This document shows positions 385-6,005 of a stretch of DNA of 7,682 nucleotides, piece after piece (within the stretch, counting starts at the first letter, position 1; the number at the start of each line of letters is the position of its first letter). Source of the stretch: a bacterium (lineage in GTDB: Bacteria; BMS3Abin14). The translations under genes and the position numbers were made by a program. The stretch spans positions 39,579 to 47,260 of the forward strand of contig JARGFV010000006.1 in the NCBI GenBank assembly GCA_029210545.1, given 5' to 3'. The notes beneath the pieces were generated by a model. That model did no database searches and was not told the DNA's origin. It worked only from the letters and a program-made list of their open reading frames with translations.

Positions 385-1932
385 TCAGTCGACCCTTCCC
401 CCGCCCGGTCCCTTGCCCTCTTCCGGCCTCTGCATGAGCAGGACCAGCCCCATGACCGCGATGAGGATGATGGCGACGACGAAGAAGGCGTCGTTGAACC
501 CGAGCATGTTGGACTGGCGTATCAGTTCCCTGTAAATGGGAGCTTCCGGGGGCAGCATGAGGCCCCTCGATGCGAGAAGTCCGGCTGCCTTGGCCTTCGC
601 GGCGAGAAAGGCGGGATCGAAGGGAGTGAGGTGCTCGACCAGCCTCGCCTGGTGAAACTGGGCCCTCCGGGTCGCAACGGTGAATGCGAAGGCGATCCCC
701 ATGCTGCCGCCCAGGTTCCGGATCATGTTGTAAACGGATGTGGCCTCCCCCATCCTCTCCCTCGGTATGTGGGACAAGGTCAGGGTCGTGGTGGGGATGA
801 AGATGCACGACATGGCGATCCCGAGGGTCACCCGGGGCAGGACGAAGGTCCAGAAGTCCGTCTGGAGGTTGAAAAGGGACATGGCGTAAGTGGTTCCCGA
901 CGCGATGAGGATGCCGGTGCCGAGGATGAACTTCGGGTTCACCCTTGTCACGAGTCTGCCCACGATGGGCATGGTGAACAGGGACGCGAGCCCGCCGGGT
1001 CCCATGACGAGGCCGGCATGCATGGAAGTGTATCCCATGAGGGCCTGCAGGAAAACGGGAAGCAGGACGATGCTCCCGAACAGGTTGAAGAAGACGAAGA
1101 ACATGACGATGCAGCCGCTGGCGAAGCTGCGGTCCTTGAACAGGCTCAGGTTGATGATGGGATGCTCATGGTACTTCTCGTTGATCGCCAGGAACACCAG
1201 GGAGACGGCCGACAGGATGAGAAAACCGACGATGGTCTCCGACCCGAGCCAGTCGGAACGCTGGCCTGTGTCCAGGACGTACTGAAGGGAGCCGAGGCCG
1301 ACGGCCAGGAAGGCGAACCCTGTGTAGTCGATCTTCATCTTCTGGCGTTTCATGTAGGGCGGGTCGTGGATGAACAGGTAGCTCAGGAAGATGGCCAGGG
1401 CGCCGATGGGTATGTTGATGTAGAAGATCCACCGCCAGGACCACGAATCGGTGATGACGCCTCCGAGGAGCGGCCCCACGATGGGTCCGAACATGACCCC
1501 GATGCCGAAAAGGGCCATGGCCATGCCGTGCTCCTTGCGGGGGAACGCCTCCAACAGGATCGCCTGGCTCACCGGGACCAGGCCGCCGCCGGCAAGTCCC
1601 TGGACAATCCGGAAAAAGACGAGGCTTTCGAGGCTCCAGGCCGAACCGCACAGGAAACTGGCGATGGTGAAAAGGGCGATGGAACCGATCTGGTAACGTT
1701 TGCGTCCGAACAGCCTCGACAGCCAGCCGGACATGGGGATGACGATGGCGTTGGAGAGCAGGTAGGAGCTGATGGCCCAGGTCGCCTCGTTGATGCCCGC
1801 GGAGAGGGAACCCCTGATGTGGTCCAGGGAGACGTTGACGATGGACGTGTCGATGATCTCGATGAGGGTCGGAAGCATGACCACCAGGGCCACGATCCAC
1901 TTATTAACTTGTCGCTCAGGATTTTCAGGCAT
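385..1932 (-). CDS. DHA2-family MFS drug efflux pump (EmrB/QacA type)
   Basis: Inner-membrane proton antiporter of the major facilitator superfamily, 515 residues, the usual length for 14-helix DHA2 pumps. Seen motifs: the first-helix signature D28-T-S-I-V-N-V-S-L; loop motif A at G69 to R78 (GWLSRLFGRK); motif B at R108 to Q123 (RIVQGLAGGG); antiporter motif C around G143 to G158 (GPIVGPLLGG), followed by WRWIFYINIP. In the family, this pump joins an EmrA-type adaptor and a TolC-type channel to export hydrophobic toxicants across both membranes. Both partners are encoded just upstream on the same strand, which supports that role; the substrate cannot be told. Unusually, 557 bases holding an opposite-strand gene and repeat arrays separate it from the adaptor gene. 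Its native upstream region is replaced by heptamer repeats to within about 10 bases of the start. The ribosome-binding site is weak (GGGGA a few bases before ATG). Confidence 0.95.
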   Translation of the reverse strand: MPENPERQVNKWIVALVVMLPTLIEIIDTSIVNVSLDHIRGSLSAGINEATWAISSYLLSNAIVIPMSGWLSRLFGRKRYQIGSIALFTIASFLCGSAWSLESLVFFRIVQGLAGGGLVPVSQAILLEAFPRKEHGMAMALFGIGVMFGPIVGPLLGGVITDSWSWRWIFYINIPIGALAIFLSYLFIHDPPYMKRQKMKIDYTGFAFLAVGLGSLQYVLDTGQRSDWLGSETIVGFLILSAVSLVFLAINEKYHEHPIINLSLFKDRSFASGCIVMFFVFFNLFGSIVLLPVFLQALMGYTSMHAGLVMGPGGLASLFTMPIVGRLVTRVNPKFILGTGILIASGTTYAMSLFNLQTDFWTFVLPRVTLGIAMSCIFIPTTTLTLSHIPRERMGEATSVYNMIRNLGGSMGIAFAFTVATRRAQFHQARLVEHLTPFDPAFLAAKAKAAGLLASRGLMLPPEAPIYRELIRQSNMLGFNDAFFVVAIILIAVMGLVLLMQRPEEGKGPGGGRVD

Positions 1933-1957
1933 ATTTCCCCGGTGCTATGGGCTATGT

Positions 1958-1986
1958 ACTATGTGCTATGACAGTCGCACTGTCAG
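1958..1986 (-). promoter_or_regulatory. Possible pump promoter inside the left array
   Basis: On the minus strand, CTGACA (1981-1986) and CATAGT (1958-1963) are 17 bases apart, a passable sigma-70 pair (5/6 and 4/6 matches) pointing at the pump gene 26 bases away. The -35 overlaps the GACAGT-CGC-ACTGTC palindrome. The match could be chance in a repeat of this composition. It matters because the insert should have cut the pump off from the operon promoter or at least distanced it. Confidence 0.2.
1970..1984. repeat. Small perfect palindrome within the left array
   Basis: GACAGT (1970-1975), loop CGC, ACTGTC (1979-1984): a perfect 6-bp hairpin. It occupies the place of two heptamer units without breaking the 7-base phase on either side, so it appears to be part of the array and not a later insertion. 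Confidence 0.6.
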
Positions 1987-2056
1987 CTATGCACTACGAG
2001 CTATGTGCCAGGTCAGGCGCTGCTTGGCGCATAAATTGCTTTAAGTTTTCCCAGTT

Positions 2057-2422
2057 ATGGAGCCCAAGCATTTTGAAAAATTGAAGGTATGGAAGGTGGC
2101 CCATGAAATTTCGGTCCTCGTCTATAAAATTACTGGTAGTGGTCCGTTATCAAGAGACTTTCCACTTAAAAACCAGCTCAGAAGAGCATCCATATCTGTG
2201 CCCTCCAATATCGCCGAAGGTTATGGCCGTCATAGTAAGAAAGAGTTTTTGAAGCATCTTTCAATAGCTAACGGTTCTGTTTTTGAGGTGAGGTCCCAAG
2301 TACTTCTGGCAAAAGATGCTGGATTAATTACAAAGGACCAGGCTCAAAAACTGAGTAATATGTGTCTTGAGGTTAGTGGCCTGATCGGAGGCCTGCGTCG
2401 TTCCGTAAAAAATTCCTTGTAG
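2057..2422 (+). CDS. Four-helix bundle protein (23S rRNA intervening-sequence family)
   Basis: A 121-residue protein with the hallmarks of the S23/IVP four-helix-bundle family: LKVWKVAHE in helix 1 (residues 9-17), FPLKNQLRRASISVPSNIAE leading into GYGR (about 35-58), an EVRSQVLLA helix (77-85) and a final GLIGGLRR helix (108-115). Family members are encoded inside 23S rRNA intervening sequences of some bacteria and as free-standing genes. They are structurally related to Avd, the accessory protein of diversity-generating retroelements, and bind nucleic acid through a basic surface. Biochemical function is otherwise unsettled. It is the only convincing plus-strand gene, is AT-richer than its neighbours, and is bracketed by inverted heptamer arrays. 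No good Shine-Dalgarno precedes the ATG (upstream bases TTTTCCCAGTT), so expression may be weak. No reverse transcriptase or rRNA is in the window. Confidence 0.92.
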   Translation: MEPKHFEKLKVWKVAHEISVLVYKITGSGPLSRDFPLKNQLRRASISVPSNIAEGYGRHSKKEFLKHLSIANGSVFEVRSQVLLAKDAGLITKDQAQKLSNMCLEVSGLIGGLRRSVKNSL

Positions 2423-2447
2423 CTATGATGTTTAAACCGCATGCTCT

Positions 2448-2489
2448 CCATAGGCCATAGCCCCTAGCCCCTAGCCCCATAGCCCCAGT
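2448..2489 (-). repeat. Right heptamer array, inverted relative to the left one
   Basis: Top strand steps: CCATAGG, CCATAGC, CCCTAGC, CCCTAGC, then after a one-base slip CCATAGC and CCCAG. Read on the minus strand the core is CTATGG or CTAGGG, the same family as the left array but in opposite orientation. It ends directly against the TGA stop of the adaptor gene (2490-2492). A single extra AGCTATG at 2421-2427, overlapping the stop codon of the four-helix-bundle gene, is in the left-array orientation. Confidence 0.8.
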
Positions 2490-3671
2490 TCACTTCGTAT
2501 GAATCGTCGGCACCACACTCATCCCGACCCGCAGCAGGTCACGCACCTCACCGGGATCGTCGAAGGTGATCTTCACCGGCACCCGTTGAACGACCTTGAC
2601 GTAGTTGCCGCTGGCGTTTTCGGGCGGGAAGAGCGTAAAGGCGCTCCCCGTGCCTGACATGATGCTGTCGACGGTCCCCTTGAACTTCCGTCCGGAGTAG
2701 GCGTCGATCTTCAGGCTGGCTTTCTGCCCCGGCCTGATGAGTTCGATGCGATTCTCCTTGTAGTTGGCGACCACGTAGGCGTCTTCGAGGTTGATCAGGC
2801 TGAAGATCGGCTGGCCAACCTGCACGGCGTTGCCCACCTCCACGGACATGCGGGCGATGGAACCGCCCGACGGCGCGGTCACGGTCGTGTAGGCCAGCCT
2901 GAGGCGGGCCAGTTCCACCTGGGCCTGGCGCCTTTCGATCTGGCTGGCCTGTGTTTTCAGGGACGCGCGGACCATTTCGAGGCCCGCCTCCTCCGCTCTC
3001 ATCCGGGCACGCGCCTGGGCGACGGTACTGTCGTGGGAATCCAGGGCCACCTGTGCCTGGTTCTTCTGTTCACGGGCCGCCGTGAGGGCGGACGCGGCCA
3101 TATCAAAAGAGGTCTTTGCCCTTTCGTAGCGGCTGACCGGGATCACCTCCTGCCCGCTGAGCTTTTCAGCTCTCGCAAGGTCCAGCCGCGCCTGGTCCAG
3201 GGCCGCCTGCTTTGCCCTGGCTTCCGCCGCCCGGGCCAGGACCGCGGCCTTGAGTTCTTCACCGGCGCTCTTCGTTCCGGCGAGGGATGCCCTCGCGGCG
3301 GCTACGCGCCTTTCCTGGGCTGTCACCTGGGCTTTAAGCTCTGCCAGCCGGCCCAGTTCGGCCTGGTGAGAGGCCTGAGCCTCGGCGAGGTCTTTCTGGA
3401 GCGTTTCAGGATCGAGCCTCGCCAGTGTCTGGCCGGATTGGACGCTCTGGTTGTCGGTTACCAGGATCTCGGCGATGTGACCGGCGACCCTGGCGGAGAC
3501 CATGTGGACGGCGCCCTCGACGAAGGCGTCGTCGGTGGTCAGGTACGCCCTCGTATAACTCCTGTAAGAAAGGACCCCGGCCAGGGCGATGAGGATGATC
3601 GTGCCGGCGATGAAAAACGCCTTGCGTTTTTTCCCGTTCCGGCCGGCGTCTGGTCTGTTTTCTTCTGTCAT
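2490..3671 (-). CDS. HlyD/EmrA-type membrane fusion (periplasmic adaptor) protein
   Basis: Adaptor of 393 residues linking the inner-membrane pump to the outer-membrane channel. Seen: a short basic cytoplasmic tail, one transmembrane helix at about 18-36, then TTDDAFVEG (45-53), the EmrA-type signature. The first half of the lipoyl-like domain is at about 58-87 (VSARVAGHIAEI). A long Ala/Glu/Gln-rich coiled-coil hairpin spans about 90-260. The second lipoyl half starts at Y261 (YTTVTAPSGG), followed by the beta-barrel signature AYVVANYKEN then RPGQ at about 298-316. The ATG has a good GGGAGA site 6 bases upstream. It starts 28 bases after the TolC-type gene, so the two are surely co-transcribed. 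It ends against a heptamer array, beyond which lies the pump gene. Confidence 0.95.
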   Translation of the reverse strand: MTEENRPDAGRNGKKRKAFFIAGTIILIALAGVLSYRSYTRAYLTTDDAFVEGAVHMVSARVAGHIAEILVTDNQSVQSGQTLARLDPETLQKDLAEAQASHQAELGRLAELKAQVTAQERRVAAARASLAGTKSAGEELKAAVLARAAEARAKQAALDQARLDLARAEKLSGQEVIPVSRYERAKTSFDMAASALTAAREQKNQAQVALDSHDSTVAQARARMRAEEAGLEMVRASLKTQASQIERRQAQVELARLRLAYTTVTAPSGGSIARMSVEVGNAVQVGQPIFSLINLEDAYVVANYKENRIELIRPGQKASLKIDAYSGRKFKGTVDSIMSGTGSAFTLFPPENASGNYVKVVQRVPVKITFDDPGEVRDLLRVGMSVVPTIHTK

Positions 3672-5786: not shown

Positions 5787-5934
5787 GGGAGAGGAACTAG
5801 GAGCTGAGAGCTAGGAGTTGGGAGCGGGGAGCTAAGGACAAGGAACCAGGAGCAAAGGACTAATGAACTAAGAACTATGAACTATGAACTATGAACTATG
5901 AACTAAGAACTAAGAACTATGAACTATGAACCAG
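5787..5934 (+). repeat. Long heptamer array, left half (about 21 units)
   Basis: Seven-base steps with one 1-base slip near 5864. The degenerate part reads GGGAGAG, GAACTAG, GAGCTGA, GAGCTAG, GAGTTGG, GAGCGGG, GAGCTAA, GGACAAG, GAACCAG, GAGCAAA, GGACTAA. The homogeneous part (5865-5927) reads GAACTAA, four GAACTAT, two GAACTAA, two GAACTAT, ending in GAACCAG. In another rotation the unit is ACTATGA, so the core CTATG is shared with the arrays flanking the four-helix-bundle gene. The strand is strongly purine-rich. Units are most uniform in the right-hand part and decay leftward, as expected if copies were added at one side. Confidence 0.88.
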
Positions 5935-5940
5935 GCCTGA

Positions 5941-5975
5941 CTCTACTTAGCTCATAGCACCTGGCTCTTTGCTCT
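5941..5975 (-). repeat. Heptamer array, inverted right half
   Basis: Read on the minus strand from 5974, the bases fall into 7-base steps GAGCAAA, GAGCCAG, GTGCTAT, GAGCTAA, GTAGAGT. GAGCAAA occurs identically, and GAGCCAG nearly so (as GAACCAG), in the left half on the other strand. The two halves therefore face each other head to head with only about 6-10 bases between them, the layout of the arrays around the four-helix-bundle gene but with no gene inside. Confidence 0.72.
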
Positions 5976-6005
5976 AAGCTGAGCTTAGAAATCTAAGCTC
6001 AGCTT
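5976..6005. repeat. Perfect 14-bp inverted repeat over the PurF-like stop codon
   Basis: Arm AAGCTGAGCTTAGA (5976-5989), spacer AA, arm TCTAAGCTCAGCTT (5992-6005), fully complementary. It spans the TAA stop (5985-5987) and the last six codons of the PurF-like gene and abuts the inverted heptamer half. As RNA it would fold into a hairpin of about 13 bp with a 4-base loop. There is no T-run after it on either strand, so a classical intrinsic terminator is not supported; 3'-end protection or a recombination/replication structure are alternatives. Confidence 0.75.

Follow-up and report, generated by a model that had tools for sequence, protein, structure and literature searches.

IVP genes between inverted short-repeat arrays: probable small mobile elements of bacteria

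In the 7,682-nt stretch of bacterial DNA analysed here (the window), an emrB-like efflux pump gene and its emrA-like adaptor gene are separated by a small gene of the S23/IVP family, which is itself bracketed by arrays of heptamers. What is this array-bounded gene, and how did it come to lie between two efflux genes? S23/IVP four-helix-bundle genes are common, and to our knowledge there has been no agreed function for them since the first rRNA intervening sequences. Intergenic repeats of 6-9 nt are widespread in bacteria, and we know of no explanation for these either. Linking the two makes both testable.

The element at the emrA-emrB junction

The features of the window are listed in Table 1. 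The protein encoded between the arrays is a member of the PF05635/TIGR02436 family and has a four-helix-bundle fold. PF05635 is its sole Pfam match (120 bits, cut-off 33.8), and TIGR02436 is matched with 114.7 bits (cut-off 24); the respective E values are 6e-35 and 2e-33. The AlphaFold model is a four-helix bundle with a pLDDT of 96. Its best structural matches are 2gsc (XCC0516 from X. campestris) and 2rld (from B. thetaiotaomicron), both of which deposits hold five chains, and the next best is the Avd protein of diversity-generating retroelements (DGRs); the VIA and Foldseek lists also contain many other helical bundles, which we treated as non-kin. The gene is AT-richer than its surroundings (43% GC, compared with 61-64% in the neighbouring genes), as a sequence-only reading of the window had stated. 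The same reading had taken the four-helix bundle for the only gene of a compact, array-bounded unit, and we indeed found no second ORF between the arms; the element encodes no nuclease, integrase or transposase. The emrA stop codon lies 2 nt away from the element, and the emrB start 10 nt away. The IVP gene runs antisense to the minus-strand efflux operon, which is the less common orientation among IVP loci. The RNA fold of the element is modestly stable (z = -2.0).

Table 1. Positions of the element, its neighbours and a gene-less hairpin in the window
Feature	Position	Strand	Description and basis
Whole element	1943-2487	+	~545 bp; array, gene, inverted array; fills emrA-emrB junction
Left (5') arm	1943-2013	+	Nine heptamers, core CTATG; repeat finding, dinucleotide shuffles P < 1/2000
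IVP gene	2057-2422	+	121 aa, PF05635 23S_rRNA_IVP, TIGR02436; profile matches and AlphaFold model
Right (3') arm	2448-2487	-	Five to six heptamers, core CTATG/CTAGG; reverse complement of left unit
MFS gene, emrB-like	385-1932	-	Neighbour of element
HlyD gene, emrA-like	2490-3671	-	Neighbour of element
Gene-less CTATG-type hairpin, left part	5797-5931	+	About 10 ATGAACT heptamers after degenerate ones
Gene-less hairpin, inverted part	5940-5990	-	CTTAGCTCATAGCAC...; sequence and fold

Nine phased CTATG heptamers had been read in the left arm. Seven of them have CTATG-type cores in one 7-base phase (at 1945, 1952, 1959, 1966, 1987, 1994 and 2001), and the two in the middle turned out to be a small palindrome, GACAGTCGCACTGTC, at about 1969-1984. 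The right arm does carry its core on the other strand, at 2482, 2474, 2467, 2460 and 2453. Four of these cores agree in phase; the outermost is displaced by 1 base, giving one 8-base step, so that the strict 7-base phase claimed for the arrays is broken once. In 2000 dinucleotide shuffles neither arm, nor the inverted match between the arms, was ever equalled, and the shuffles together with matched windows rule out chance repeats as the source of the arrays. TRF and an inverted-repeat search concur, with 23-nt arms that are 83% complementary.

The gene-less hairpin at the far end of Table 1 was absent from the sequence-only reading. It lies between tetR-like and amidotransferase genes, and its RNA fold has a z of -2.1. 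A further stretch of the window, at 100-310 downstream of the MFS gene, contains GC-rich degenerate short repeats, with ACGCCGTGACAAG occurring twice at 216-241, and is possibly a degenerate array.

In nine relatives from the same family emrA and emrB are directly adjacent, and the gene is present at the junction in none of them. This agrees with the earlier view that the unit was inserted into the efflux operon, splitting adaptor from pump; the contrary outcome, the same gene and arrays at this junction in all relatives, did not occur. Four of the nine junctions have significant gene-less inverted arrays with units unrelated to those of the window (GTGTAGA, GGGGAAA, GGTAAAA and the 8-mer GTTAAGTT). 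One of the other five has a single array, and four are without a significant array.

Inverted arrays around IVP genes in other genomes

The layout of a gene between inverted arrays is real and general. The source genome alone contains nine IVP genes, most of the others being bracketed by differently spelt arrays, some of them 8-mers. We assembled 97 IVP loci from 98 searched genomes, and a second, independent set of 79-80 named loci was gathered with one protein as the query, a family-wide alignment being too divergent. The two sets together span more than 15 phyla, with flanking arrays of 6-9 nt. A strong array is present in the 250-base flanks of the 97 loci in 47% of cases upstream and 40% downstream, compared with 8.6% of control windows. 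The inverted match beats the direct one in 52 of the 61 two-armed loci of this set (mean inverted score 18.4, compared with 5.2 for arms paired across different loci), and 54 of the 55 two-armed loci of the second set are inverted. Over both sets, upstream and downstream arrays are reverse complements of each other in 106/116 two-armed loci; the direct orientation matches better in nine, three of which show both orientations on each side. Inverted arms with a score of at least 12 were found at 68% of 75 named loci and in 0.4% of 279 pseudo-gene windows taken from the same loci. A clear second arm is absent at about one quarter to one third of IVP loci, and the arms mostly consist of four to five repeat copies.

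The check proposed with the sequence-only reading, 7-base periodicity around IVP genes elsewhere, has thus turned up many loci of the same layout, rather than IVP genes lacking heptamer flanks. The arrays are general; the unit is not fixed, as it varies with the locus and the protein clade, and periods of 6, 8 and 9 also occur. We rejected CTATG as a universal motif, as it is confined to a few genomes.

Nearly all of the plasmid IVP loci that we inspected have inverted arms, and several loci on viral contigs likewise. We rejected a phage origin, as a search of a phage collection gave no match. A few IMG/VR contigs contain an IVP, several of these with arrays; with XCC0516 as the query, the viral contigs yielded only relatives at 45-63% identity. 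In two IMG/VR contigs (L367 and L369) both arms around the IVP consist of AACGTTG heptamers and read alike, because this unit is self-complementary. Another genome (G019, loci L134-L141) has many copies of a pair of short, divergently oriented IVP-like genes, with heptamer arrays on the flanks and a strong hairpin, TTTTCAAAAAAAGTTC...GAACTTTTTTTGAAAA, between the two genes; this may be a form of the element with two genes.

Sequence comparison indicates that the repeat period tracks the protein clade, and that closely related proteins at unrelated sites have a common unit spelling. The period (6, 7, 8 or 9) changes 12 times along a tree of 93 IVPs, compared with 21.3 times with shuffled labels (minimum of 17 in 200 shuffles). 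Where 7- and 8-mers coexist within a single genome, the period follows the protein. Unit similarity climbs with protein identity on the gene strand only, and G exceeds C in the upstream arm on that strand at 97 of 108 loci. Eight IVPs from Desulfobacterales (62-77% identical in the pairs compared) have one common 8-mer unit, AAGGATTC/AAGGGGTC, and unrelated flanks. Close IVP relatives can also carry diverged arrays at conserved sites. The median dN/dS of the Flavobacterium IVP is 0.07, indicating purifying selection; therefore, the gene is no decaying passenger there.

Movement, landing sites and gene-less hairpins

It is highly likely that array, gene and inverted array move to new sites as one unit, with essentially clean empty sites. 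One genome (G065) contains four elements that are 98-100% identical and occupy four different sites. One of them lies inside a ferritin ORF, and joining its flanks restores an uninterrupted protein (...EHERFVTGK-INDLMKLA...); therefore, some 504 bases entered without loss or clear target duplication. Plasmids of Nostoc and Calothrix provide filled and empty alleles with a flank identity of 76-96%, including reciprocal pairs within one cell. In a five-gene Nostoc plasmid cassette, the stop of gene 4 and the start of gene 5 overlap in TAATG. A GGGAAAA-type element occupies precisely this overlap in pNsp_c; pC052_A and pC052_B lack it and read GAGGTAATGGGATTTG there. In pNsp_a, from the same strain as pNsp_c, a TCAGGAG-type element lies between genes 3 and 4, a junction that is empty in pNsp_c, and gene-less TCAGGAG hairpins at genes 2-3 are present in some copies of the cassette and missing from others. 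Further filled and empty pairs come from Calothrix (at an integrase junction) and from nrdB-nrdA. The gmk-nadD element of Flavobacterium is inherited in many species; other relatives lack it, and one species has the element on the opposite side of gmk. Target duplications are none or just 3-5 nt, which could be microhomology.

The occurrence of one unit at different sites with empty alleles is the general mark of a mobile element, and the IVP units bear it. Mobility, which had been no more than inferred from the window, gains from the four near-identical copies at different sites, and the empty alleles that had been asked for now exist for ferritin, gmk-nadD, Nostoc, Calothrix and nrdB-nrdA.

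Gene-less hairpins of matching unit are dispersed in genomes with IVP elements, and they far outnumber the gene-bearing ones. In sampled stretches of genomes, arrays of period 7 or 8 number 4.8 per 100 kb where an IVP is present and 0.57 in IVP-free genomes. In 400 kb of the source genome we counted 59 such arrays, mostly gene-less. IVP units from sister genera match 45 of these 59, compared with 19.8 for shuffled units; there is no excess for units from other families (32 compared with 33) and only a slight one for the genome's own IVP units (15 compared with 11.6 shuffled). In other genomes, the IVP unit of the same genome ranks first among 30 genomes for 7 of 18 arrays. In one Flavobacterium, gmk and nadD are separated not by an IVP but by a gene-less 8-mer hairpin, whose unit resembles that of the genome's own IVP element elsewhere.

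Two other genomes are worth recording. The G065 contigs C5, C7, C9, C21 and C24-C26 carry more than 30 gene-less relatives of IVP element ends, partly as 201-bp tandem arrays. The 1-Mb genome G076, in which no IVP was detected, has several CTATGGT arrays, so arrays can outlast the gene or form in its absence.

That most arrays have no gene also suits an account in which the hairpins came first: slippage and template switching at quasi-palindromes would make intergenic inverted heptamer arrays, and IVP cassettes would later drop into their loops, for example by recombination between arrays of one common unit. The gene-less hairpins with unrelated units at emrA-emrB in relatives (significant in 4/9), and those at gmk-nadD, would be expected on this account. 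We nevertheless consider it improbable, as array and gene together entered hairpin-free sites in the ferritin gene and at the Nostoc TAATG junction, the unit goes with the protein across unrelated sites in Desulfobacterales, and the period goes with the protein within one genome. Clean, hairpin-free empty sites in near-identical backgrounds, which also count against it, have already partly been found.

The elements sit at the stop codon of the upstream gene, mostly within operons and usually in the same direction. At 49 named loci with a co-directional upstream ORF, the left array begins a median of 2 nt from the stop codon of that ORF, and 86% of these starts fall within -15 to +25 nt of it; arrays hold stop codons in all frames, and a spurious ORF could therefore end at an array. 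The annotated cases (gmk, the Nostoc cassette, cas and suf) concur with this placement. According to ORF calling, upstream gene and IVP are co-directional in 48 of 54 loci. Gene pairs split by IVPs include cas6-cas4, cas10-cmr3, nrdB-nrdA and sufA-sufB. Three cyanobacterial CRISPR operons are split in this way (cas6-cas4 twice and cas10-cmr3; L351, L354 and L358). The cas6-cas4 junction of a Dolichospermum locus (L373, about 721-985) has a palindromic insert, GTAGGTTGGGTTGA...AACCCAACCTAC, and its close relative Anabaena sp. 90 has an IVP element there instead.

Placement at stop codons inside operons, and the strong purifying selection at a fixed site in Flavobacterium, could also mean that the arrays serve as cis-regulatory hairpins, whether attenuators, terminators or RNase III sites, bound by an IVP that controls its operon or its own mRNA, mobility being incidental. 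RNase III does cut IVS hairpins in rRNA (PMC4990558). This interpretation is unlikely given the presence/absence polymorphism and the multi-copy spread; in addition, the neighbouring genes are functionally unrelated (efflux, cas, nrd, suf and gmk-nadD), and the site changes while the unit stays.

Possible mechanism and relation to known systems

The best explanation of the window is probably a small mobile IVP element, in which reverse-complementary short-period arrays hug one Avd-like four-helix-bundle ORF. We also think it rather likely, with somewhat less assurance, that the IVP reads its own repeats. The protein, a probable homopentamer, would recognise them in the hairpin, formed either by RNA or by single-stranded DNA, perhaps with one repeat per subunit, the arms mostly having four to five copies. 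Recognition would lead to the propagation of autonomous and gene-less copies alike, as RAYTs do for REPINs. Cutting and joining would have to be done by an enzyme from the host or from a different element, for which the leading, albeit tentative and rather doubtful, candidate is a Y1 single-strand transposase working in trans. Y1 transposases/RAYTs are present in 32 of 38 IVP genomes and 31 of 60 other genomes (p=0.001), an association that may be confounded by genome content; G073, a complete genome, contains an IVP but lacks Y1. Subterminal hairpins, and insertion that duplicates the target barely or not at all, would be in keeping with such an enzyme.

A retroelement-like route, in which the IVP recruits a reverse transcriptase as DGR Avd does, the element RNA is copied and the arrays are extended by template slippage, has the common Avd fold (VIA Z 14.7 to 8ub7) and a weak Avd HMM match (E 3.6e-4) in its favour, and we reject it as very improbable because reverse transcriptases (RVT_1) are not enriched in IVP genomes (9/38 compared with 12/60, p=0.80) and none was detected in the source genome, in G065 with its recent copies, or in the complete genomes G001 and G070. 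The same counts lend no support to templated extension, which the sequence-only reading had suggested as the way in which the arrays are made.

More broadly, we give an even chance to a bacteria-wide class of mobile element that carries no catalytic gene. The period and spelling of its self-complementary arms would be read, and perhaps also set, by a small Avd-like protein that mobilises itself together with hundreds of gene-less hairpins, and rRNA intervening sequences and the cyanobacterial and Xanthomonas heptamers would belong to the class as members or derivatives. If true, this would add a transposase-less class of mobile element with programmable ends, one that remodels the junctions of operons (efflux, cas, nrd, suf and gmk-nadD), and it would give rRNA intervening sequences a simple origin. 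Since the protein clade would predict the repeat period and unit, the repeats bound and the hairpins spread by a given protein would be predictable, and clade-specific repeat length and spelling may explain many of the puzzling 7-letter repeats of bacteria. Our searches of the open-access literature yielded no account of inverted short-repeat arrays around IVP genes, and nothing connecting the heptamer repeats of Xanthomonas, cyanobacteria or others with IVP genes; such absence is no proof.

The closest architectural parallel is RAYT/REPIN, where a gene is bracketed by inverted repeat motifs and gene-less inverted pairs are dispersed between genes (PMC3116915). IVP elements have this architecture in common with RAYT/REPIN, but unlike RAYTs they have no Y1 HUH transposase and no known catalytic site, and unlike REPINs they end in tandem arrays whose period and spelling vary by protein clade. 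An insertion sequence has a transposase and fixed terminal inverted repeats common to its copies; IVP loci have neither, and their units differ. Foldback transposons are eukaryotic and have long inverted ends composed of short sub-repeats. Their copies have one common repeat sequence, whereas each IVP lineage has its own. DGR Avd (4dwl, 8ub7) resembles the IVP in fold and weakly in sequence; the surroundings of the window IVP, unlike those of a DGR Avd, contain neither a reverse transcriptase nor a target gene, and no template/variable repeats.

Several known heptamers, namely Xanthomonas GGGAATC, Nostoc GGGGAYT, the cyanobacterial STRRs and Beggiatoaceae TAACTGA, form 7-nt intergenic arrays like the arms of IVP elements. 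We know of no gene partner proposed for them so far. GGGAATC forms 70 inverted pairs in Xcc and 75 in Xac (PMC4692102), TAACTGA heptamers are found in Beggiatoaceae (PMC4679880), and STRRs occur in cyanobacterial RNase P RNA (Vioque 1997, as cited in PMC2858038). X. campestris does have an IVP, the XCC0516 mentioned above, and GGGAATC and the other heptamers are candidate derivatives of IVP elements.

Finally, the 23S rRNA intervening sequences (IVSs) of Coxiella and Leptospira and the IVP elements have one protein family, as well as complementary ends enclosing the S23p ORF. ORF-less IVSs also exist. Unlike IVSs, IVP elements lie outside rRNA at hundreds of loci, with locus-specific units, periods of 6-9 and dispersed gene-less copies. 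Two conserved 23S motifs were sought in 372 loci and found in none. We therefore rejected the window element, which lies between efflux genes, as an IVS in 23S rRNA, and the IVP elements described here fall outside the definition of an IVS because none is in rRNA. In the Coxiella IVS, of about 430 nt, the complementary ends pair into a stem whose loop holds the S23p ORF; this ORF is preceded by tandem heptamers (GACAGAT), the number of which varies between strains (PMC4990558). Given these complementary ends, the enclosed ORF and the variable heptamers, the Coxiella IVS is very probably an rRNA-resident member of the IVP element class.
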